A stretch of 26,710 nt of DNA, taken from positions 1-26,710 of the IMG/VR virus record IMGVR_UViG_3300021960_000427, one strand, 5' to 3'. Origin of the DNA: a virus. The translations under genes and the position numbers were made by a program. This document shows positions 9,579 through 24,064 of this stretch, one piece after another. A model generated the notes under the pieces. It saw only the letters and a program-made list of their open reading frames with translations, was not told the DNA's origin and searched no databases. Each line of letters begins with the position of its first letter. Positions within the stretch are counted from its first letter, which is position 1.

Positions 9579-11384
9579 ATGGCATATCAAGTAGACAAAT
9601 ATAACGGAACATTTTTAGTAAGCGTAGCAGACGGTACTATTGACACTACAACTGATATTAAATTAGTTGGAAGAAACTATAGCGGCTATGGTGAAGTTCA
9701 AAATGAAAACTTTTTACATCTACTTGAAAGTTTTTCAAACAGTGTACAACCAGAAAAGCCAATTCAAGGACAAGTTTGGTTTGACACTAACAGTTTAAAA
9801 TTAAAATTCTACGATGGACAGCGATTTAGAACCGCCAGCGGAGCTGAAATTGGAGCTAGTCCGCCAGTTGGTTTATCACAAGGCGATCTTTGGTTTGATA
9901 GTCAAACTAATCAGTTAAGTGCTTGGAATGGATCAAATTTTGTTTTAATTGGTCCACAAAGCGCACCTGGTTTTGGTACTTCACAGATTGTTACAGAGGT
10001 TGTTAAAGACAATAATAACACTTCGCATGTAATACTTAGAGCAGTTGTTGGTGGTATTACAACAGCAGTGTTTAGTAATGATGATGATTTTACCCTTAGT
10101 AATGATAATACACTAGCTGGTTTCAGTGAAACAGGTCGTCAAATCAAAAAAGGTATTACACTAAACAGTGTTAATGGCACAACTGGTATTAGTGATAGTG
10201 CTGGATTTAGATTTTTCGGTACAGCAAGTAACGCAGAAAAATTAGGCGGGCTAGATCAAACACGTTTTGTTAGAACAGACGGTACAGAAGGATTTATAAC
10301 ACAACAATCATTTGCTGATGTTGGCTTTACTGTTGGTAATCCAGTTAAAGCACTTAAAATTTATATTAACAGTGATCAAAATCCAGCACTTGAAAATCAA
10401 GTTAATGGTAAAATTGTAATTTCGTCAAGCAATCCAAGTAATTCAACTGATAAATTAGACTTTTTAACATTTAGTAGAGAACAAGCATTTGTTAGTGATA
10501 CAGATAGTTTCAATACTATATATCCTGGAGCAACCGGGGTAGTTAACTTAGGTTTGGAATCACGTAAATTTAAAAATATTTGGTCAGAAAATTTAAAAGG
10601 TGAGTTAGTTGGCGATGTACACGGCAATGTTATAGGAGATGTAACAGGTGACATATACGCTCAGACTAGTCCTACTACAACAATTAAGATTTTTGATCAA
10701 GCGACTAGAGAATTTTCAGCACAAAAATTTACAGGACAATTTGTAGGATCGTTAGATGGATTAGCGGCACAATCAGTTACGTCAAATAAGTTAACAAGTT
10801 TAGATCCAAGCAGTACACATACTCCTGGTACAGCTACTATTCCTATTAGATCAGCTACAGGAACTATTAGTGCTGTATTGTTTGATGGACAATCAACTGA
10901 TTCGCAAAGTGTTAATGGTAAAATATTAGATGTTAATAAAACACCTGACACTATTGTTTTACGTAGCGGTGGCGGCGATGTAGACGCTAGATTTTTTAAT
11001 GGTACAGCAACATCAGCTAGATATGCTGATTTAGCAGAAAAGTATACTACCGATCAAGAGTATCCTATTGGAACTGTAATGATGATAGGAAAAGAATCAC
11101 ATGAAGCAGAGTCGTGTAATGGTGCTGGTTTTCCGATAGGAGTAATATCAGCAGAACCGGCTTACTTAATGAACAGTGATATTGATGGTCAAGCAATTGG
11201 TTTGAAAGGACGGGTACCTGTACGTGTAGTTGGTCCAATTTCAAAAGGTCAACCTGTTTACGTAGCAGGCAACGGCGTAGCAAAATATTCTTCAGTATTA
11301 TTACATTATCAAATGGTAGGCATAGCATTAGAAAGTGATTCTAATGAAAATGAAAAATTAATTGAGTGTGTACTTAAAGTATAA
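9579..11384 (+). CDS. Tail fibre-like protein with peptidase-G2-like C-terminus, paralogue 5
   Basis: This 601-residue protein has the shared module: VGRNYSGYGE from about residue 30, NENFLHLLESF, GQVWFD, and a second GDLWFD ... LIGP unit. A beta-rich shaft follows, including a GDVHGNVIGDVTGDIYAQ tract. From about residue 481 the C-terminal domain begins ARYADLAEKY and contains GFPIGVISAEP (from 517) and PVRVVGPISKG. This resembles the C-terminal autoproteolytic chaperone domain of phage appendages (Peptidase_G2 type), in which a DYAE segment precedes a GIVSANP-like strand. Such domains help fibre trimers fold and are then cut off. I cannot see whether the catalytic residues are kept, so self-cleavage is inferred. 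A late promoter box precedes the gene. Confidence 0.8.
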   Translation: MAYQVDKYNGTFLVSVADGTIDTTTDIKLVGRNYSGYGEVQNENFLHLLESFSNSVQPEKPIQGQVWFDTNSLKLKFYDGQRFRTASGAEIGASPPVGLSQGDLWFDSQTNQLSAWNGSNFVLIGPQSAPGFGTSQIVTEVVKDNNNTSHVILRAVVGGITTAVFSNDDDFTLSNDNTLAGFSETGRQIKKGITLNSVNGTTGISDSAGFRFFGTASNAEKLGGLDQTRFVRTDGTEGFITQQSFADVGFTVGNPVKALKIYINSDQNPALENQVNGKIVISSSNPSNSTDKLDFLTFSREQAFVSDTDSFNTIYPGATGVVNLGLESRKFKNIWSENLKGELVGDVHGNVIGDVTGDIYAQTSPTTTIKIFDQATREFSAQKFTGQFVGSLDGLAAQSVTSNKLTSLDPSSTHTPGTATIPIRSATGTISAVLFDGQSTDSQSVNGKILDVNKTPDTIVLRSGGGDVDARFFNGTATSARYADLAEKYTTDQEYPIGTVMMIGKESHEAESCNGAGFPIGVISAEPAYLMNSDIDGQAIGLKGRVPVRVVGPISKGQPVYVAGNGVAKYSSVLLHYQMVGIALESDSNENEKLIECVLKV

Positions 11385-11387
11385 ATA
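11380..11387 (+). promoter_or_regulatory. Consensus T4-type late promoter box
   Basis: TATAAATA matches the T4 late consensus exactly and overlaps the stop codon of the 9579 fibre. It lies 23 bases before the 11411 start, with the ribosome site CGAGGAAT between. A 12-bp palindrome (ATATACGTATAT, 11385-11396) overlaps its 3' end and the expected start point. It implies gp55-type late sigma factor and sliding-clamp control, with those genes outside this window. Confidence 0.75.
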
Positions 11388-11410: not shown

Positions 11411-12664
11411 ATGCCAGCACAATTTGATCCAATACTTTATTCGGACTGGGACGCAATACAGAGTATTGTTTATGCTCAGTTAGGACCCCTTCAAGAATTT
11501 GCCGGCTCACCTGGAGTATATGTTGAAGGCACAGGGTACGGTCTTCCTACAGCATCTCTATCAAGCAGACCTTATCCTTTTTCAAGAAATATTACACAAA
11601 TTACATCAGAAGCACAAGCACAAGTAACTTTTGATAGTGCCCACCACTTAGTTACAGGTGAAGTTATATTCTTTACAAGTTTTAGCAATTCATGGGGCGG
11701 ATTATCAATAGCAAATAATTTTGCTACAGTAAACTCAGTCCTTGATAGCACAAGAGTAATTATAGATTTCAGTACTTTTGGATTTACACCTTGGCAGATT
11801 GGTGATACAGCTGAAGCTGTACAATATTATATTAGTGCTAATCAATTTGTTAATCTAAGAGCAGATTTAGCAAAAGTAGTACAGCATATTACCGGAGCAC
11901 CTCCAGGACCAGGTAATTTTTTACCAGGCGGCGAAGCAACAGATCTTGCTACTCCTGTCAGAGGGGATATTATCTATCATAGTGTATTTGATCCTTATTA
12001 TAATATTTCTAACAATGTTGACGCTTATAAGTTTATTAACAACGAATTTACAACTGTACAACCTTCTTTACCAGGAAGTGCTATCAATACCGGCGGCTGG
12101 AACGGAGTAAGTGATTTTGAAATTGGTATCACATGGTCAGGATCAGACGGATATGATTTTGTACAGTACTTTAACACCGGCGGACTATTAAAACTTGATA
12201 TGATTAATTTAGACAACAGTGTGGTAGGTAATGCTAATAATGATAATGTGTTTAATCTAAACAGACACTGGAGAGATTTATTGAAAAAAGTCTTTCCTTT
12301 ATGGGTCGGAGCCAAAGGTAAAACACAAATGGGACTAGCAGGCGACTCTAGAAATATTTCTACATCAGGGGCATTTGATTCTATTGGTGTATACTCAAGT
12401 ATTTTCCAAGTTTCAGGTACTGCGGTTACTGCTTATGGCAGTGCTTATGATGATCACTCTGTTAATGTTGAAATGAAACAAACAGTTAATCAAAAAAATC
12501 TATTCTTTAGAATAACACTTACAGATACTTCATCAACTAACGCATACGCTTCTACAGTAGATGTTGATAGAAACTTTGAGTTAAGTTTCAGATACTCAGT
12601 AGGTTCGGTTCCACTAGCATCAGCTCCAAGCAACTATACTATCTCAATCACTAACGGTTGGTAA
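11411..12664 (+). CDS. Phage structural/fibre-like protein of a different family
   Basis: This 417-residue protein lacks the N-terminal module of the five upstream fibres. It starts at ATG 11411 after CGAGGAAT. The first 30 residues (FDPILYSDWDAIQSIVYAQLG) and a segment near 140-162 (ISANQFVNLRADLAKVVQHITG) form a pattern I remember from virion proteins of T4-like cyanophages. Residues of about 60-115 look like a small beta domain (VTFDSAHHLVTGEVIFFTS, then a DSTRVIIDF strand) of the FCCH-like type found in phage fibres. The C-terminal half is beta-rich and ends in a strand-like segment. A perfect late promoter box precedes it, supporting a virion role. The exact place in the particle is not known. 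Confidence 0.7.
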   Translation: MPAQFDPILYSDWDAIQSIVYAQLGPLQEFAGSPGVYVEGTGYGLPTASLSSRPYPFSRNITQITSEAQAQVTFDSAHHLVTGEVIFFTSFSNSWGGLSIANNFATVNSVLDSTRVIIDFSTFGFTPWQIGDTAEAVQYYISANQFVNLRADLAKVVQHITGAPPGPGNFLPGGEATDLATPVRGDIIYHSVFDPYYNISNNVDAYKFINNEFTTVQPSLPGSAINTGGWNGVSDFEIGITWSGSDGYDFVQYFNTGGLLKLDMINLDNSVVGNANNDNVFNLNRHWRDLLKKVFPLWVGAKGKTQMGLAGDSRNISTSGAFDSIGVYSSIFQVSGTAVTAYGSAYDDHSVNVEMKQTVNQKNLFFRITLTDTSSTNAYASTVDVDRNFELSFRYSVGSVPLASAPSNYTISITNGW

Positions 12665-12728: not shown

Positions 12729-13091
12729 ATGAATAAAGAATCAATCCAAAAAATTATTGATACGTCTGATAAACTTAGAACTTTGAATTTTCAAAAAATT
12801 CGAGCAAAGGAAAAGTTTGAAGCTAACTCTATTTTGGGTTATGAAGGTGGTTTATTTAAAGTAGACTCGACCCTAATCTTATATCTAAATTACCTTTTAC
12901 AAAGCGGTCGTCAAACCGAAACAATATTATTAGATTCTAATCAAAATCCCATTCTAATAAAAGAAGTAAGAAGTTTGCTTGAAGCTGTTCAAGACAAATA
13001 CTACACAGCTCTTGACATTTATCATAATGATATTAAAGAACTTAATATTTTAAAAAATAGTACCGCTAGATACCTTAACTTGGAGGTATAA
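12729..13091 (+). CDS. Conserved small phage protein of unknown function
   Basis: This 120-residue protein starts after AGGA with seven bases of spacing. It is mostly helical: an N-terminal helix rich in Lys and Arg, a central segment (GYEGGLFKVDSTLILYLNYLL), and a final long helix. I remember a similar small protein (KVDSTLxxYLN core, then LLDSN.NPVLI) near the fibre genes of T4-like marine phages, without a known role. No catalytic motif or membrane segment is seen. It opens the operon that continues to 18157; its stop TAA shares one base with the next ATG, so translation is coupled to the glycosyltransferase-like gene that follows. Confidence 0.65.
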   Translation: MNKESIQKIIDTSDKLRTLNFQKIRAKEKFEANSILGYEGGLFKVDSTLILYLNYLLQSGRQTETILLDSNQNPILIKEVRSLLEAVQDKYYTALDIYHNDIKELNILKNSTARYLNLEV

Positions 13092-13855
13092 TGTCAAAAG
13101 GATTCCTTTTATTTGCTCACAATAACGATGTTATTGATTATGTTAAATTGGCAAGTATTTGTGCGAAACGAATTAAAAAGCACTATACAAAACCAGTTGC
13201 GTTAGTTACTGATATTAATATAGATAGTCCAGACTTTGATTTTGTAATAAACACTAAAATTGATAAATCAAATACTAGAAATTTAAATGGTGTTATTCAA
13301 TCTTTTCATAATATTTCAAGATTAGATAGTTTTAGACTATCTCCGTTTGATGAGACAATAGTTTTAGATGTAGACTATATTGTTTGTAGCAATATATTAG
13401 ATCAATATTTTAATAATGATGAAAGTTTTTTAATGGCAGAAGGAGTTTATAATATACATGATTATGAATACTCTGAAATTAAAATGCTTGGTCTAAATAT
13501 GAAATGGGCAACAACACTGTATTTTAAAAAAGATAATATAGCAGAATCTATTTTTAATCAAGCAAAGTTAATCAAAGAGAATTATAATTTTTACAGAGAT
13601 TTTTATAAGTTCAATGCTAGTAATTACAGAAATGATTATTCTTTTACAATAGCAGAGCATATAGTAAAAGGTTTAACAAAATCAAATTCATTGCCTAAAA
13701 TAAACTTTCTTGAACTTCCTACAGACGAAATTATTAGTATAGATGGAGAACGGTTTGTTTGTTCAGTCAATCACAAACCGTCTGTTTTTAAAAATACAGA
13801 TTTACATTTTTTTAACAAACAAACTATTTTAGATTTTGAAAAGGAACTAGCATGA
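13091..13855 (+). CDS. Glycosyltransferase-like protein (DxD), pair A member 1
   Basis: This 254-residue protein starts in the overlap TAATG with GGAG upstream. Its N-terminus (GFLLFAHNN, then YVKLASICAKRIKK) and the PVALVTD strand fit a Rossmann-like nucleotide-sugar transferase (GT-A) fold. The acidic motif TIVLDVDYIV places D93 and D95 like the metal-binding DxD of GT-A enzymes, preceded by a LDSFRLSPFDE segment as in GT8-like families. It is related to the next protein, which has the same layout and LDVDMVF. Donor sugar and acceptor are unknown. No signal peptide or membrane anchor, so it should act in the host cytoplasm. Fold moderately certain; activity inferred. Confidence 0.65.
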   Translation: MSKGFLLFAHNNDVIDYVKLASICAKRIKKHYTKPVALVTDINIDSPDFDFVINTKIDKSNTRNLNGVIQSFHNISRLDSFRLSPFDETIVLDVDYIVCSNILDQYFNNDESFLMAEGVYNIHDYEYSEIKMLGLNMKWATTLYFKKDNIAESIFNQAKLIKENYNFYRDFYKFNASNYRNDYSFTIAEHIVKGLTKSNSLPKINFLELPTDEIISIDGERFVCSVNHKPSVFKNTDLHFFNKQTILDFEKELA

Positions 13856-14685
13856 AAAATTTTGGTTACCTTTTGATAGTAAACAATGATAAAGATAATC
13901 TTTATCACAGAATGGCACATGTACTAGCAAGTAGTATTAAAAAAACACAGCCTAAAAATTACGATAATGTTTGTTTGATAACAGATAGAAAAGATTTATC
14001 TGATAGCGGATATGTGTTTGATAAAATTATTTTTAATGATGATTATGTTGGTTGGGATCAGCGCAATTATATGGATAAACTAACTCCTTATAAGCATACT
14101 ATTTGTTTAGATGTTGATATGGTTTTTACAAGAGATATTAGTCATTGGGTTGATTATTTTGTAAGTGATCCAAACGGTTTGTATATTACCAAAAATGTTT
14201 TAAAATACAATGGAGATAAACTTACTAATTTAAAATGTCGCCCTGGATACGTAGAAAATAACATTTCTATACTGTACAGTGGATTTACTTATTTTAGTAA
14301 AGAATCTAAAATTGTACCTAAATTTTTTAAATTAGTTCATGCTATTACAGAGAATAAAACTACGTTTAAAAACTTATATATGAGTAAAAATTCACCTAAA
14401 GAAATAGGAACAGATGAAGCGTTTAGTATAGCATCACATATACTAGATATTGATTATCTAGAGTTATCCTTTCCAAGATTTGTACACCTAAAATCAGAAT
14501 TACAAGATTATGGACTACAGTCAATATCACGTGATTTAGGATATTATTTAGATAGTAGTGCTAACATAACTATTGGAAACTATGCTCAGTATGATATTAT
14601 ACATTATTCTGAAAAAGATTTTCCTATATCAAATATTCAACAAGTATACAAAGAATTGTTTTTAAAAGGTATTAAACATGTATAA
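13852..14685 (+). CDS. Glycosyltransferase-like protein (DxD), pair A member 2
   Basis: This 277-residue protein starts in an ATGA overlap with the previous gene. It parallels that protein: GYLLIVNNDKDN, a MAHVLASSIKKTQ helix, a VCLITDR strand, and then KLTPYKHTICLDVDMVFTRD with D87 and D89 as the likely metal-binding DxD. It is somewhat longer, with an insert after the DxD that includes SGFTYFSKES and a GTDEAFS segment. Such segments in GT8-like enzymes line the acceptor site. It was probably produced by duplication, and the two may form a heterodimer or add successive sugars. Substrates unknown. No export signal. Confidence 0.65.
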   Translation: MKNFGYLLIVNNDKDNLYHRMAHVLASSIKKTQPKNYDNVCLITDRKDLSDSGYVFDKIIFNDDYVGWDQRNYMDKLTPYKHTICLDVDMVFTRDISHWVDYFVSDPNGLYITKNVLKYNGDKLTNLKCRPGYVENNISILYSGFTYFSKESKIVPKFFKLVHAITENKTTFKNLYMSKNSPKEIGTDEAFSIASHILDIDYLELSFPRFVHLKSELQDYGLQSISRDLGYYLDSSANITIGNYAQYDIIHYSEKDFPISNIQQVYKELFLKGIKHV

Positions 14686-15205
14686 AATCTTTTATGATAA
14701 CAATGGAAATATTTCTCAATACACTAAAGTAATGTTACATGATGTAGAAGGTTTTACATCAGCTATTGTGCCAGAAAGTTATACACATATATTTGATTCT
14801 GTGTCAAACGGAGATTTTAGTTTAAACAAGTATAAAGTAGACATCAACAACAAAGAATTTGATCTTATTGATCAACATCCGGCCAAACCTGTTGAAGATT
14901 ATTTTTCAAACAAACTAGTTGAAATTAGATATGCTAGTATAGATCCAACGTTATCAATAAAGATTAAAAGTATTAATTCTAGGCCTCATATTGTAGTTAA
15001 TAGCAAACATAAGCAAGAAAGAAAATTTGATATATTGTTGACAAGGAAAAATAATGTAAATTTTTTATATCAAACCTTTAGTTGTGAAACAAATAAAACA
15101 AATACATTTTTAATTGATCAACTAGATTATAGACATGTATTTGATAACAATTTTTCTTTATATTATAAAAAGATATTTGATACAGCAGGATATGTAATAG
15201 AATGA
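14678..15205 (+). CDS. Unknown protein in glycosyltransferase operon
   Basis: This 175-residue protein overlaps the previous gene by eight bases (ATGTATAA). I do not recognise it. The first 50 residues (MYKIFYDNNGNISQYTK, then DVEGFTSAIVPES) look beta-rich, and the rest mixes beta strands with Lys/Asn-rich loops. No cysteine cluster, DxD, membrane segment or signal is seen. It lies inside a translationally coupled operon between two glycosyltransferase-like pairs, so a role in the same process (acceptor, adaptor or structural partner) is possible but unproven. Coding is supported by the overlaps at both ends and by codon use like its neighbours. Confidence 0.6.
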   Translation: MYKIFYDNNGNISQYTKVMLHDVEGFTSAIVPESYTHIFDSVSNGDFSLNKYKVDINNKEFDLIDQHPAKPVEDYFSNKLVEIRYASIDPTLSIKIKSINSRPHIVVNSKHKQERKFDILLTRKNNVNFLYQTFSCETNKTNTFLIDQLDYRHVFDNNFSLYYKKIFDTAGYVIE

Positions 15206-16110
15206 AAATACAAGACACAGATATAATTTTTATCAGCTATGACGAACCAAATGCTGAAGAAAATTGGGCGAAACTTAAAAATATTGTTCCATGGGCAAAG
15301 CGTGTACATGGAGTTAAAGGTAGCGATAATGCTCATAAAGAAGCCGCAAGGATTTGTGATACAGAATGGTTTGTCGGAGTTGATGGTGATAATATTATCG
15401 ATCCAAAATTTTTAGAAATAGAAATAAAAGATATTCCTAATATTAACTGCTACAGTTGGTGTGGAAAGAATAATATTAATAATTTAATGTATGGTAACGG
15501 CGGCTTAAAAGTTTGGAACAAGCAGTTTGTTTTACACATGAAAACACACGAAGCATCAGACAGTGATAGAGCTCAAGTAGACTTTTGTTGGGAAAAAGGA
15601 TATCAAAATTTTCCAGAATCATTTAGTACAACTGTAATTAATGCCACTCCTCATCAAGCATGGAGAGCTGGGTTTCGCGAAGGTGTTAAAATGCTAACAG
15701 TACAAGGTATTCTACCATCGGCTGATAAATTAAAAGAACAAGCACATTGGCAAAACTTACATAGATTAAGAGTTTGGTCGTCTATTGGAAGTCACACTAT
15801 AAACGGAAACTATGCTATACTTGGTGCTAGAATGGGCACGGACATGGCATATAGTGATTGGAATTATATTAATGTTAGAGACTTCTCTGAACTAGATAAC
15901 ATATATGAAAAAAATGTAAAAGGAATGAATGAATCTGATGCTGTTTATACTATTAAAGAATTAGGAAAACAGATTAGACAAAAGCTAGGCTTACATTGGG
16001 CATATTTTGATAGTGAACAAAGTTTACATATGATAGAGTTATATGAAGAAGCCGTCGATCTAGGTAAGACATATTATAACAAGGAAAAGATATGGACAAG
16101 TGGTTCCTAG
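15202..16110 (+). CDS. Glycosyltransferase-like protein, pair B member 1
   Basis: This 302-residue protein starts in an ATGA overlap with the previous gene. It opens IIFISYDEPNAEENW, continues WAKRVHGVKGSDNAHKEAA, and has WFVGVDGDNIIDP with D61 and D63 where family-2-like GT-A enzymes have their DxD. A later motif, YGNGGLKVWNK, and HQAWRAGFREGVKM recur in the next protein as YGHGGIKVFDK and FHTWRTAFRECVKL, so the two are paralogues. The C-terminal 80 residues are helical and specific to this copy. I remember related open frames in marine T4-like phages, annotated only as hypothetical or glycosyltransferase-like. Donor and acceptor unknown. Confidence 0.6.
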   Translation: MKIQDTDIIFISYDEPNAEENWAKLKNIVPWAKRVHGVKGSDNAHKEAARICDTEWFVGVDGDNIIDPKFLEIEIKDIPNINCYSWCGKNNINNLMYGNGGLKVWNKQFVLHMKTHEASDSDRAQVDFCWEKGYQNFPESFSTTVINATPHQAWRAGFREGVKMLTVQGILPSADKLKEQAHWQNLHRLRVWSSIGSHTINGNYAILGARMGTDMAYSDWNYINVRDFSELDNIYEKNVKGMNESDAVYTIKELGKQIRQKLGLHWAYFDSEQSLHMIELYEEAVDLGKTYYNKEKIWTSGS

Positions 16111-16748
16111 TTTACGACGATCCTTTTGCTAAACAAAATTTTGAAAAAGCAAAAAGCAAGTTAGAAACTTTACAAAAAGTCGTTACAGCAGATGGAATAC
16201 ACGATAGTCATAAACTATGTGCGAATAAAAGTTTAACTAATAGATTTTTGGTATTAGATGCTGATTGTGATATTTTAGAAAGTTTCTCATACACACATTT
16301 TTTAAATGAGCTTAGTACTGAAAAGAAAGTTTTTGTGTTCAGAGCTATAAATCCTATTAATGATTTAATTTATGGCCATGGCGGAATAAAAGTTTTTGAT
16401 AAGAGGCTGTTTGTAAACAATCAAGGAGTAGATATGACTACTGCTTTTGATATTGTTCCAGTTAATTATGTTACAAACATACACAAATTTAACAGTACAG
16501 CTTTTCATACATGGCGTACAGCTTTTAGAGAATGCGTCAAGTTAGCCAGCGGAACTGTAAAGTTAAAAAATGTTAAAGATGATGAATATAGATTAACTAC
16601 ATGGTGTGAAAAGTTTAATGATGTAGAGTATGCTGAATATGCTAAACTAGGTGCGTTAGCTGGTAGAGAATACGGATATAAAAATAAAGAACTACATAAC
16701 ATAAACAACTTTAATTGGTTGAAAGAAAAATTTAAGGATGTGTCATAA
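16092..16748 (+). CDS. Glycosyltransferase-like protein, pair B member 2
   Basis: This 218-residue protein overlaps the previous gene by 19 bases. It is a shorter paralogue of that protein: FLVYDDPFAKQNFEKAK, DGIHDSHKLCA, then FLVLDADCDIL with D56 and D58 as the presumed DxD, YGHGGIKVFDK, and HTWRTAFRECVKL. It lacks the C-terminal helical extension of about 80 residues. Both copies keep the acidic motif and the GG-KV loop, so neither looks inactivated. Its stop TAA shares a base with the ATG of the radical SAM gene, which implies coupled expression. The function is inferred from fold-like motifs; no family search was possible. Confidence 0.6.
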   Translation: MDKWFLVYDDPFAKQNFEKAKSKLETLQKVVTADGIHDSHKLCANKSLTNRFLVLDADCDILESFSYTHFLNELSTEKKVFVFRAINPINDLIYGHGGIKVFDKRLFVNNQGVDMTTAFDIVPVNYVTNIHKFNSTAFHTWRTAFRECVKLASGTVKLKNVKDDEYRLTTWCEKFNDVEYAEYAKLGALAGREYGYKNKELHNINNFNWLKEKFKDVS

Positions 16749-18157
16749 TGTTTTGGAAACCAGATCCAAATAAAAAATATAAAAAAATTGCCACAAAGAT
16801 TGGAAAAGGTTTTTGTTCAGCAAAGTGGAATCATGTAAGCATACACTTACATACAGGTGACAATCATAGTTGCTATCATCCTAGTATGCATAAAGTTAGT
16901 TTAGATGAATTAAAAGAAAATCCAAGCGCATTACATAATAGCAAATATAAAAAAGAACAACGCAAAATGATGTTAAACGACGAGCGTCCGCCCGAGTGTA
17001 GCTATTGTTGGGCATTAGAAGATTCTGGCTCACTTAGTGACAGACATTTTAGAAGTGCCGAGTTTGAAGAAATGGAGAAAGGCACAGTAGATAAATTAAA
17101 ATCCATGCCGTGGGATGCTGATGTGGCTCCTAAATATTTAGAAGTTAATTTTGGTAATGAATGCCAAATGAAATGTAGTTACTGTACTCCTAGTATTAGT
17201 AGTGCTTGGGAAAACGAATTTAATAAGTTTGGTGATTACCCTTTACTCCAAAATAGAAATAAAAGACAATATCATGCCAACAATAAAAATCGCGAACAGT
17301 GGATTTACAAAGAAAAGAATAACCCTTATATTGAAGCATTTTGGAAATGGTTTCCAGACATATATCCTCAATTACACACTTTGCGTGTAACAGGTGGTGA
17401 ACCGTTGTTAAGCAGTAACGTATTCAAAGTGATGGATTATATGGAAAAGAATCCTAATCCAAAATTAGAATTTAGTGTAAATTCCAATATGTGTGTTCCT
17501 CAAAGAAATCTTAATAAGTTTATAGACAAGGTTACTGTATTAACACAGCATAAAAAAATAGATAGAGTACAACTGTTTACTAGTATTGACACCTGGGGTG
17601 ATCAAGCTGAATATATTAGAAATGGTTTAAATTTGGAACTATGGGAAAAGAATGTAGATACGTTCATGAAAGCAGTTCCTAACGCACAGTGCGGACTTAT
17701 GATCACCGTAAATTTCATGTCTGTGCACCGTTTTAAGGGTCTGCTAGCGCGGATCTTGGAGTGGAAGCACAAATATAACACCTTAACACACAATCGCTTT
17801 ACAATAGACACTCCGTACTTGTTAGAGCCCGAACATTTGAGCTTACAAATACTAGACGATGATCATTTGGATACAATGTATGACTGCTTAGATTTTATGA
17901 AACAAAATACCAAAAATTGGAACTTCAAGTATTTTAGTGATACAGATGTAACAAAATGGGAACGTGTTATAAAATGGGTAGAAAGTAACCGATTTACAGG
18001 CGATCGTTTACTTGAGAATAGAGTTGATTTTTTAAGATTTGTTGATGAACACGATAAAAGACGAGGAACGAACTTTTTAAGAACGTTCCCCGAATTGACA
18101 GATTTTTATAATAAATGTATTACTCACGCAAATCCATTGCCATTGGGAAAATTTTAG
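16748..18157 (+). CDS. Radical SAM enzyme with N-terminal twitch/SPASM-like Cys domain
   Basis: This 469-residue enzyme has the radical SAM cluster motif C139-x3-C143-x2-C146 (CQMKCSYC) and the SAM-binding TGGEP at 215-219. Before the barrel lie four cysteines (C23, C42, C84, C87), in GFCSAKWNH, SCYHP and PPECSYCW, as in the twitch domain that binds an extra Fe-S cluster; the spacing SLDELKENPSA and MMLNDERPPEC is typical of that domain. Twitch and SPASM enzymes usually modify peptides or proteins. The substrate is unknown. It closes the glycosyltransferase operon. A stretch near 17690-17775 uses clearly more GC-rich codons than the rest. The last 38 bases overlap thyX on the other strand. 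Confidence 0.85.
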   Translation: MFWKPDPNKKYKKIATKIGKGFCSAKWNHVSIHLHTGDNHSCYHPSMHKVSLDELKENPSALHNSKYKKEQRKMMLNDERPPECSYCWALEDSGSLSDRHFRSAEFEEMEKGTVDKLKSMPWDADVAPKYLEVNFGNECQMKCSYCTPSISSAWENEFNKFGDYPLLQNRNKRQYHANNKNREQWIYKEKNNPYIEAFWKWFPDIYPQLHTLRVTGGEPLLSSNVFKVMDYMEKNPNPKLEFSVNSNMCVPQRNLNKFIDKVTVLTQHKKIDRVQLFTSIDTWGDQAEYIRNGLNLELWEKNVDTFMKAVPNAQCGLMITVNFMSVHRFKGLLARILEWKHKYNTLTHNRFTIDTPYLLEPEHLSLQILDDDHLDTMYDCLDFMKQNTKNWNFKYFSDTDVTKWERVIKWVESNRFTGDRLLENRVDFLRFVDEHDKRRGTNFLRTFPELTDFYNKCITHANPLPLGKF

Positions 18158-18803
18158 CAATAGTTTTAGCACAAGCATGAGCAATGTCCATATGTTCCTG
18201 TTGTGTGCCATTAGCACCACGTAGTTCAATATAATGTATCCAACTACGAAGTGTTCCGTTCATATACAAACGTGTTTTTGTACAACCTTCTGGTAATACA
18301 GCACGAGCTTGTTCTTTAGCAATACCGTTTTCGATTGCCCACTCGTATGCTTCTTTAGCCGCCGCAATAACTTTTTCTTGTTGCGATTCCCAATCATTAA
18401 TTAGATTCATATCTTGTTGTGTTGTACCCAACGCAATAGAATTTTGTCTATTTTTTGGATCTTGTAGTCGTGCTTCACGCAGTACAAATTGATCTCCGAA
18501 CTCTGCCGGATCAGCATAACGCTGACTAAACTCTTGGAAACTAAACGAACGATGTCTTACAATTTGATGAGCAATGTCACGTGTAGTATTAATTTCTAAA
18601 CAAGCACTAACCATTTCAAGTGGTGACCAGTGGGCATGTTTAATCAAATACCTGATAAGTTTTTCCGAAGTTTCTTTATTCATCTGATTTGATGGATTAG
18701 AAACCCTAGCACAGTAAGCAATTAAATCCTGTACATCTCTTAAATGCTCAGCAGTTAATCCTTCTTCTGGCTGTGAATATGAAATCAATTTTACTTGTGT
18801 CAT
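18120..18803 (-). CDS. thyX: Flavin-dependent thymidylate synthase ThyX
   Basis: This 227-residue protein makes dTMP from dUMP using FAD, NADPH and methylene-tetrahydrofolate, supplying thymidine for phage DNA. The ThyX signature RHR-x7-S-x-R is intact at R83-R95 (RHRSFSFQEFSQR), and the C-terminal LPEGCTKTRLYMNGTLRSW...LR region carries the conserved substrate-binding arginines. Length is usual for the family (about 210-250). The start ATG overlaps the stop of the upstream gene (ATGA) and has GAGGGA as ribosome site. It is the last gene of the minus-strand block and ends inside the radical SAM gene of the opposite strand. ThyX is common in marine T4-like phages, whereas T4 itself uses ThyA-type Td. 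Confidence 0.95.
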   Translation of the reverse strand: MTQVKLISYSQPEEGLTAEHLRDVQDLIAYCARVSNPSNQMNKETSEKLIRYLIKHAHWSPLEMVSACLEINTTRDIAHQIVRHRSFSFQEFSQRYADPAEFGDQFVLREARLQDPKNRQNSIALGTTQQDMNLINDWESQQEKVIAAAKEAYEWAIENGIAKEQARAVLPEGCTKTRLYMNGTLRSWIHYIELRGANGTQQEHMDIAHACAKTIAKIFPMAMDLRE

Positions 18804-23143: not shown

Positions 23144-24064
23144 TTATGTTCCGATAGCATTGCCAAACAAGTATACGTGTACCCTTGCGGCTACATTATA
23201 TCCACGTTCAAATGCCATCTTAGCAACTTCTCCGGCTGTTGCTGTTTGTTCTTCTTCTCTAGCACCAACTGGCATAACCCATACCGGATAATCTACACCT
23301 TGTGCTTTAAATTGTGAGATAACATCTTCCATTTCTACCCATTGATGTTGTTCACTTCCTACAACAAACTTTAGTTGTCCCCTGTTAGATAAATTAAAGT
23401 ATTCACTTACAGTTTCTGGTTTGATTGCTTTTTTTGCTTGTTCACCTGATACACTCCATAGTTTAGGTGATACACTAAAAAATAGTTCAACATCTTTAGT
23501 CACTTCATTATCTACATGCCAAAAATCTTTAAACTCTTGTGTAAGTGCTTGTGTACCGTTTGTTTCGAATGTAACACTAGCAGGCATATTACCTAAACGT
23601 TTAAATTCTGTCATGATGCCAATAAACGCTTCTTGGCCATGTTTCATTAACGGCTCACCACCTGTAACACAGAAGTGCTGTCTTTGTCCTGTAACAGGAT
23701 GTAGAAACAAACCATCTGGATTACTATCTGTTTTAAGTGTGTCAATAATCTGATGTGCTAGTTCAACAGCAGTCTTTTGACCCATTAAGTGTTTAAACTT
23801 TTTACTCCAAGTGTAACTACTATCACAGCCTTTATCCCATACAGGTAAGTCTTCTACACGTTTTACTGTGCTAGTATCAAACTTTTCGAAAGGCAGATCG
23901 TATGTATCTGGGTTACGAGGATCAATTTGTCCAAACCCGTTACACTGTAGATTACACAAGAAAAAACGTACCCAAGCAGTTGGTACGCCTGTGTAGTGTC
24001 CTTCACCTTGAATGCTGTGAAAGATTTCGCTAAAGTAATATTTCTTATCAGTTGCTATCGTCAT
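23144..24064 (-). CDS. queE: 7-carboxy-7-deazaguanine synthase QueE (radical SAM), variant cluster motif
   Basis: This 306-residue radical SAM enzyme converts carboxy-tetrahydropterin to 7-carboxy-7-deazaguanine, the precursor of queuosine and of deazaguanine DNA bases. Its front (YYFSEIFHSIQGEGHYTGVP) and TGGEPL are typical. The usual C-x3-C-x2-C is altered: C37-x3-C41 (CNLQC) is followed by NGF, and the third cysteine appears as C80 in KGCDSSYTW, after a 38-residue insertion; CDS-SYTW matches the CDTxxTW that normally follows directly. Partner genes (queC, queD, folE) are not in this window. The ATG has no Shine-Dalgarno; a consensus promoter sits just upstream. It starts the sub-block leading to the nuclease. 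Confidence 0.9.
   Translation of the reverse strand: MTIATDKKYYFSEIFHSIQGEGHYTGVPTAWVRFFLCNLQCNGFGQIDPRNPDTYDLPFEKFDTSTVKRVEDLPVWDKGCDSSYTWSKKFKHLMGQKTAVELAHQIIDTLKTDSNPDGLFLHPVTGQRQHFCVTGGEPLMKHGQEAFIGIMTEFKRLGNMPASVTFETNGTQALTQEFKDFWHVDNEVTKDVELFFSVSPKLWSVSGEQAKKAIKPETVSEYFNLSNRGQLKFVVGSEQHQWVEMEDVISQFKAQGVDYPVWVMPVGAREEEQTATAGEVAKMAFERGYNVAARVHVYLFGNAIGT

Follow-up and report, generated by a model that had tools for sequence, protein, structure and literature searches.

In a stretch of viral DNA of 26,710 bases (IMG/VR virus record IMGVR_UViG_3300021960_000427, analysed over its whole length and hereafter called the window), a fibre-type gene, c5, is followed on the same strand by seven genes, g1 to g7, among them two pairs of putative glycosyltransferases and a predicted radical SAM enzyme. 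In our reading, to which we give a probability of roughly 0.55, large T4-like phages carry this set as an accessory cassette, expressed late, whose enzymes glycosylate the product of the upstream gene c5 in the host cytoplasm and possibly the c3 fibres as well. The gene order, the folds of g3 and g5, the catalytic residues and the linkage to c5 form its established part; the target and the chemistry are predictions. The features concerned are as follows.

9579..11384, + strand: fibre/virion gene assigned to cluster c3, with PHROG tail fibre and virion structural matches
11380..11387, + strand: TATAAATA, T4-type late-promoter motif, 31 bases 5' of the c5 start
11411..12664, + strand: c5, fibre-type gene and proposed cassette substrate (linkage to the cassette; homologue in phage PA5oct with an electrospray ionisation tandem mass spectrometry, ESI-MS/MS, note)
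12729..13091, + strand: g1, 120 amino acids, possible adaptor, in 35/36 viral loci
13091..13855, + strand: g2, GT8-like putative glycosyltransferase (profile match to the g3 family; conserved residues)
13852..14685, + strand: g3, GT8/glycogenin-like putative glycosyltransferase (AlphaFold2 model; glycogenin match of the profile)
14678..15205, + strand: g4, 175 amino acids, fast-changing (open reading frame at the same place in other lineages listed)
15202..16110, + strand: g5, predicted GT-A domain (residues 1–146) and helical C-terminal part (AlphaFold2 model; D61/D63)
16092..16748, + strand: g6, shorter g5 paralogue (hhalign probability 100; D56/D58)
16748..18157, + strand: g7, predicted N-terminal-twitch radical SAM enzyme (NF033640, 325.9 bits)

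All seven open reading frames (ORFs) g1–g7 are present on the + strand in the ORF list and its translations, and their coordinates bear out the claim of an earlier note on this DNA that each frame touches or overlaps the next: the overlaps measure 1 base for g1/g2, 4 for g2/g3, 8 for g3/g4, 4 for g4/g5, 19 for g5/g6 and 1 for g6/g7. The seven-gene unit described there consists of real genes, but its true start lies one gene earlier, at c5, and the cassette reads c5-g1-GT8-GT8-g4-g5-(g6)-radical SAM. Fibre and virion-type genes occupy its 5' side in the window; on the 3' side, thyX and then a gene run including a QueE-like gene lie on the opposite strand. Pfam and PHROGs offered nothing usable for window g1–g6 and weak single matches only for the scanned relatives of g1, g2, g4, g5 and c5, and one g3 relative (L090) matched phrog_1903, a family of unknown function (E 7e-5). 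Chance or misread ORFs are ruled out by the conservation of the gene order across distant relatives.

Conservation was assessed in IMG/VR scans, which produced 42 loci with g7 and 143 stretches with g5 relatives, 80 of the 143 being kept. After near-identical proteins (shared 5-mers above 70%) had been dropped, 46 non-redundant viral g5 loci were left; upstream counts refer to the 36 with at least 4 kb of upstream sequence and downstream counts to the 40 with 3 kb or more on that side, and loci from different scans may share a contig. g1 was present in 35/36 loci (the one without it is L066), two GT8-like genes preceded g5 in all 36, and a gene of the c5 cluster lay upstream of the cassette in 31. 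On the downstream side, g6 was found nearby in 20/40 loci and a radical SAM gene within 3.5 kb in 38/40, with two or more such genes in 12; up to five or six g7-type genes occur at some loci. Neighbouring genes touched or overlapped in 51 of 53 g1-g2 pairs and 53 of 56 g2-g3 pairs. The seven-gene order, for which the earlier note had proposed a check across phage genomes, is kept, and the homologues are not scattered.

The linkage was also tested in reverse, with c5 as bait because a pattern scan with window g3 alone had found zero relatives. Two c5 proteins taken from cassette-bearing loci retrieved 72 loci, from which 14 with less than 3.6 kb downstream and 26 redundant ones were dropped, and 31 of the remaining 32 carried g1, two GT8-like genes and g5. 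Twelve of these 32 loci share an identical protein with loci from the earlier scans; among the 20 without an identical c5, g2, g3 or g5, the cassette was present in 19, and the linkage holds down to c5 proteins approximately 35% identical to the bait. With 46 non-redundant viral g5 loci and 32 non-redundant c5 loci, an artefact of one contig family is rejected.

Pairwise protein identities between loci tracked those of g5, with Spearman coefficients of 0.72 for g1, 0.68 for g2 and 0.64 for g3 (56 non-redundant loci drawn from both viral and genome contigs) and 0.51 for c5 (43 loci), values that none of 500 shuffles equalled. Since the identities of g1, g2, g3 and c5 follow g5, and those of the radical SAM gene do so weakly, we regard c5-g1-g2-g3-g4-g5 as the core, with the radical SAM gene exchangeable. 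The mean identity of g2 and g3 over the 56 loci is only about 33%. Among the genome-contig loci with enough upstream sequence (29), g1 was found in 10, two GT8-like genes in 10 and c5 in 9; those loci are probably phage contigs binned into metagenome-assembled genomes (MAGs).

The paralogy of g2 and g3 claimed in the earlier note escapes direct comparison (phmmer at E 10 finds no mutual match) and emerges at the level of family profiles, which match with an hhalign probability of 99.9. The DxD residues named there, D93/D95 in g2 and D87/D89 in g3, were recovered in translation and alignment. Profile A2, built from 89 aligned g2/g3 proteins, matched glycogenin among PDB sequences (E 5e-7). AlphaFold2 models were made of g3 and g5, two of the seven cassette proteins, and both contain the GT-A fold that the earlier note had expected of them. 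The g3 model (predicted local distance difference test, pLDDT, 93.8) aligned with LARGE1 over 232 of 277 residues (Z 15.8, root-mean-square deviation (rmsd) 3.9), with GlyE of Streptococcus pneumoniae (5gvv) over 221 residues (Z 15.5, rmsd 3.8) and with glycogenin over 203 residues (Z 15.5, rmsd 3.6); as modelled, g3 is a full GT8/glycogenin-type GT-A fold. At position 87 (g3 numbering), 80 of the 89 g2/g3 rows have D and 9 have E, whereas D89, D188 and H251 are invariant throughout the 89; all 44 g2 rows have the DxD and the equivalents of D188 and H251. By analogy with glycogenin, we take D87/D89 to be the DxD motif, D188 the catalytic Asp and H251 the C-terminal metal-binding His. We call g2 and g3 only GT8-like because the Pfam GT8 model is unmatched: window g2 and g3 hit no Pfam family at E 1, and when the 89 g2/g3 members were scanned at E 0.1, that model was absent from the 25 families listed out of 30. 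Single members match other sugar-transferase models, namely Mannosyl_trans3 (4 members) and Nucleotid_trans (1).

Paralogy within the second pair, g5 and g6, is evident directly (phmmer 1e-16, hhalign probability 100), and the alignments confirm the DxD residues assigned to them, with g5 D61/D63 kept in 39/39 aligned proteins and g6 D56/D58 in 50/50 rows (49 distinct). Residues 1–146 of the g5 model (pLDDT 90.9) correspond to a GT-A domain, aligning with B4GALNT1 over 140 residues (Z 11.1, rmsd 3.0); the C-terminal half is helical in the model and was barely tested by the structure search. In a viral structure library, the top two matches of the model (E 7e-17 and 3e-15) come from uncultured Caudovirales phages, and both are larger proteins. 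The g5 profile found nothing below E 0.07 among PDB sequences, g5 stayed below the Pfam Glycos_transf_2 cut-off (12.5 bits, E 0.14, cut-off 23.3), and g6 did not match that model at E 1. By predicted fold and DxD, g5 is of GT-A type, yet it is not filed as Glycosyltransferase family 2. In seven proteins (L194, L199, L202, L203, L207, L213 and L132) g5 and g6 are fused, with g6 behind g5.

Scanning bacterial and archaeal contigs for g5 gave 36 loci. A glycan role of g5 in general is supported by its glycosyltransferase neighbour in Ruegeria, where it adjoins a GT4-type glycosyltransferase, and by its fusion with a UDP-glycosyltransferase-type domain in a Paraburkholderia MAG. Together with g6 and radical SAM genes, g5 is present on four MAG contigs of Bdellovibrionota (L127, L130, L135 and L154). 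In addition, g5 relatives occur among several radical SAM genes, mostly on both strands, in L146, L149, L151, L153 and L154 (Bdellovibrionota and other MAG contigs). In Rhodobacteraceae and allies (L139, L140, L142, L145, L148, L150, L157 and L158) g5 lies near clusters c53, by eye caspase-like/SEL1-repeat proteins, and c46, a pattern not seen in the gene calls of L141; some of these loci are also near c77, a glycosyltransferase.

The last enzyme, g7, scores 325.9 bits against NCBIfam NF033640 (N_Twi_rSAM; curated cut-off 170) and is on this match a predicted N-terminal-twitch radical SAM enzyme. The four extra N-terminal cysteines pointed out previously (C23, C42, C84 and C87, besides C139/C143/C146) are indeed there; they fall in the stretch matched by NF033640, are conserved in the aligned relatives and are no oddity of this protein. 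Each of the seven cysteines is present in 84–85 of 85 rows, of which 84 are distinct; where one is missing, the row has an X. We infer that the four N-terminal ones may bind an auxiliary cluster. In 50,697 phage records, window g7 matched only Vibrio phages K566 and K567, at 24%, and a second type of g7 had no match. Positions 161581–168239 of K566 (L233) hold a run of four N-terminal-twitch-like radical SAM genes, two of which pass the NF033640 cut-off; a fifth lies at 177902, and profiles A1 and A2 found no match in K566. It is a named phage record in which twitch radical SAM chemistry could be studied.

Of the two small proteins, g1 has an invariant D69 and P74 in 43 aligned sequences. The place of g4 is taken in the other lineages listed by an ORF with little sequence likeness, mostly of 110–210 amino acids (444 in L123).

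Evidence on expression comes from TATAAATA, which matches what we take to be the T4-type late-promoter consensus and has a single exact copy in the window (shuffles average 4.57). It stands at −31/−32 of c5 in the window and six relatives. Across all loci, the motif occurs within 100 bases upstream of 8/55 distinct c5, 2/62 g1, 2/63 c3 and 1/189 g7 genes and, in the same count, of none of the g2–g6 genes, against a background of 8 in 575,031 intragenic positions. Most of the motif-bearing c5 upstream regions belong to near relatives, so this evidence supports the window's own lineage. There is no exact copy between c5 and g1 in the window, and sigma-70-type promoters and intrinsic terminators showed no excess over shuffles.

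As to the phages concerned, Gp23 was found in the records of 11/38 relatives, the largest such record having 363,943 bases, and on this ground at least those 11 are T4-like. The gp23 of two relatives has its closest matches, at 67–74% identity, in jumbo phages, among them Phosso, PA5oct, Paride and Vibrio phage 2.275.O. The T4 neck-protein model PF11649 had no match in 23 records, and none in the controls either. Three g5 proteins and one each of g2, g3 and g4 gave zero tblastn matches in the 50,697 phage records, and on these sequence searches no cultured phage appears to carry the cassette.

In the cultured jumbo phages PA5oct and Paride, the c3-c5 pair (c3 homologues at E 4e-64 and 8e-64, c5 at 2e-47 and 2e-48, respectively) closes a run of structural genes and is followed directly by opposite-strand genes. 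Their whole records contain no g2/g3 or g5 relative by profiles A1 and A2, which match five positive-control records, and one weak NF033640 match each (16.6 bits, cut-off 170); the search for g1 and g4 covered 14.5 kb around c5. Because these phages hold c3-c5 without the cassette, we infer that it would represent an insertion or a loss directly behind a virion gene. Eleven Pseudomonas phage records of this kind turned up in the c5 search, with 53% of the protein covered at approximately 32%, and two of them were inspected. The c5 homologue of PA5oct bears an ESI-MS/MS note, which we read as detection of c5 in the virion, and the Paride record has no such note. In PMC6892783, four MIJ3 virion proteins are reported from mass spectrometry, with no link to c5 established.

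Taken together, position, overlaps and late-promoter motif suggest joint late expression, in which c5 and the cassette would be made together, late in infection. The GT8-like g2 and g3 and the GT-A-type g5 and g6 would then use nucleotide sugars to assemble a short glycan on c5, step by step, in the cytoplasm, and g1 and g4, as a guess, might hold, present or bind the substrate. g7 would subsequently oxidise, epimerise or dehydrate a sugar, or alter a side chain, a last step that may differ between lineages where the radical SAM gene has been exchanged or multiplied. The occurrence, in many large uncultured phages, of the same set of putative sugar-attaching and sugar-altering enzymes behind one tail-fibre gene suggests that the fibre is decorated with an unusual glycan before phage release, and a decorated fibre may have altered receptor binding or resist host factors. 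A more specific version is put forward tentatively, at clearly less than even odds: the near-obligate cassette would glycosylate c5 as a putative adhesin, exchangeable twitch radical SAM enzymes, one to several per locus, would make rare sugars, and the last step would set fibre specificity. Among twitch enzymes, BtrN has an aminocyclitol as its substrate. In the open-access literature searched, we found no description of the cassette, and none of a radical-tailored modification of virion glycoproteins.

Several known systems resemble it in part. In serine-rich-repeat adhesin loci such as that of pneumococcal PsrP with its GT8-type GlyE, an adhesin gene lies beside dedicated cytoplasmic glycosyltransferases; the cassette shares the tight linkage of a gene of adhesin type, as c5 would be, to glycosyltransferases (31/36 and 31/32 loci) and the structural alignment of the g3 model with GlyE, and differs in that the protein is a phage one, no accessory Sec protein was recognised among g1–g7 and a radical SAM enzyme is added. 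O-antigen conversion cassettes of the gtrABC type are defined by a membrane-spanning flippase and transferase, unlike window g1–g7, in which the largest 19-residue hydropathy mean is 0.99 and no membrane-spanning stretch is apparent. Virus-encoded glycosyltransferases act on the virus's own virion in PBCV-1 (capsid) and, as cited in PMC12619734, in mycobacteriophages (capsid and tail tube), and the g5 model aligns with the PBCV-1 capsid glycosyltransferase 2p72 over 141 residues (Z 9.3, rmsd 3.6). In contrast to these systems, the cassette is linked to a fibre gene, includes a radical SAM step and is known from its genes, and g5 has no sequence match with PDB glycosyltransferases. NF033640 takes in g7 above its cut-off, and the family is here tied to a fibre and glycosyltransferase cassette. 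The host-recognition cluster of pelagimyophages (PMC7029224) likewise combines glycosyltransferases and radical SAM genes in a T4-like fibre region; in the accessible part of that paper no fixed cassette is named and the genes are read as changing the host O-chain, and for two relatives of the present cassette gp23 points instead to jumbo phages, Phosso and PA5oct among them, as the nearest. A marine T4-like genome has 12 radical SAM genes (PMC5332604), a comparable abundance, with no glycosyltransferase cassette described in the part available.

Around the cassette, thyX (18120–18803, − strand; PF02511, E 5e-46) converges on g7 and overlaps its end by 38 bases, an arrangement retained in many near relatives, and the QueE-like gene (23144–24064, − strand; PHROG 2076, E 6e-55), a second radical SAM gene of the window, lies outside the cassette. 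In favour of the main reading, one member each of three gene clusters neighbouring the cassette in relatives matches a model of a sugar-related type: UDP-glucose/GDP-mannose dehydrogenase, DegT aminotransferase and NAD epimerase, respectively. By eye, the relatives' neighbours also seemed to include SGNH hydrolases, an amidinotransferase-like protein and a methyltransferase-like domain; Pfam did not confirm these, and they were not used.

A number of observations weigh against glycosylation of c5. Linkage to c5 alone does not prove that c5 is the substrate, and the modified fibre is a prediction. One of the 32 c5 loci, L209, has no cassette, the exact late-promoter motif is absent before 47/55 c5 genes, and the radical SAM gene is co-inherited with g5 weakly (Spearman 0.24 over 44 loci, a value that 2 of 500 shuffles reached). 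g7 stands alone at 12 loci, 9 of which have 4 kb or more of upstream sequence (a set not made non-redundant), and Rhodobacteraceae contigs, isolates included, carry g5 without GT8-like genes. The composition of c5 is unremarkable, its Ser+Thr content (0.18 vs 0.13–0.20 in other upstream genes) not being raised and its N-x-S/T sites numbering 4 vs up to 15 in other upstream genes. Hydropathy means above 1.6 occur in some relatives (1/51 g1, 2/64 g5 and 8/100 g7 proteins). Finally, c5 closes its gene run in PA5oct and Paride, and may be no more than the end of that run.

Two candidates were discarded on these data: a glycosylation-rich fibre deduced from composition, since the Ser+Thr of c5 is not raised, and the radical SAM gene alone as the feature defining the system, since 12 loci have g7 alone. 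The latter (L012, L014, L018–L023, L026, L037, L038 and L041, of which 3/12 have under 4 kb upstream) lack g1–g6 in the stretch examined, and several share another order, c38-c39-c40-c44-c36-c41-g7-c51, a second viral radical SAM setting. In L209 (1568–5050), c5 is followed by ORFs of 406 and 340 amino acids. The first of them falls into PHROG 14998 (E 7e-17), a family of unknown function; both are without a Pfam match and possibly form an alternative module.

We consider it unlikely that the cassette instead changes a host surface glycan, e.g. the lipopolysaccharide O-chain, and so blocks adsorption of competing phages. The authors of PMC7029224 interpret the glycosyltransferases of the pelagimyophage host-recognition region in this way; they place GT8-type glycosyltransferases and radical SAM cassettes in or around the fibre region and propose O-chain modification, a further point against a virion target, and the GT4-type neighbour of g5 in Ruegeria would also suit it. 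It is countered by the missing membrane-spanning stretch in window g1–g7, and tight linkage to one fibre-type gene together with the late-promoter motif fits virion assembly better than host alteration. The same two observations favour the fibres that the earlier note had named as the natural target, in a form narrowed to one near-obligately linked fibre-type gene and still as a prediction.

Quite improbable, in our view, is a role of the enzymes on another virion protein (baseplate, tail or capsid), with c5 a neighbour merely as the end of the late run. In PA5oct and Paride the structural run ends with c5, which makes the site behind it a natural place for insertion, and the mycobacteriophage glycans cited in PMC12619734 sit on capsid and tail tube; the presence of the cassette at 31/32 c5 loci, with c5 identity falling to about 35%, is poorly explained by the place of insertion alone. 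Very improbable is a role in auxiliary metabolism, with a nucleotide, a DNA base or a small molecule as the substrate and not a protein or surface glycan: phage glycosyltransferases can hypermodify DNA (cited in PMC12619734) and the window has a QueE-like radical SAM gene outside the cassette, but the cassette follows the fibres on the strand of the structural genes, and thyX and the QueE-like gene are on the other.

If glycosylation of c5 by the cassette is correct, the many radical SAM genes of these phages would gain a substrate hypothesis, and twitch radical SAM chemistry would become testable in a single operon, with PA5oct and Paride allowing comparison with and without the cassette. The fibres of a large group of uncultured phages would be glycoproteins, with the glycan part of host recognition or protection, and fibre sequence alone would therefore be no predictor of their hosts.

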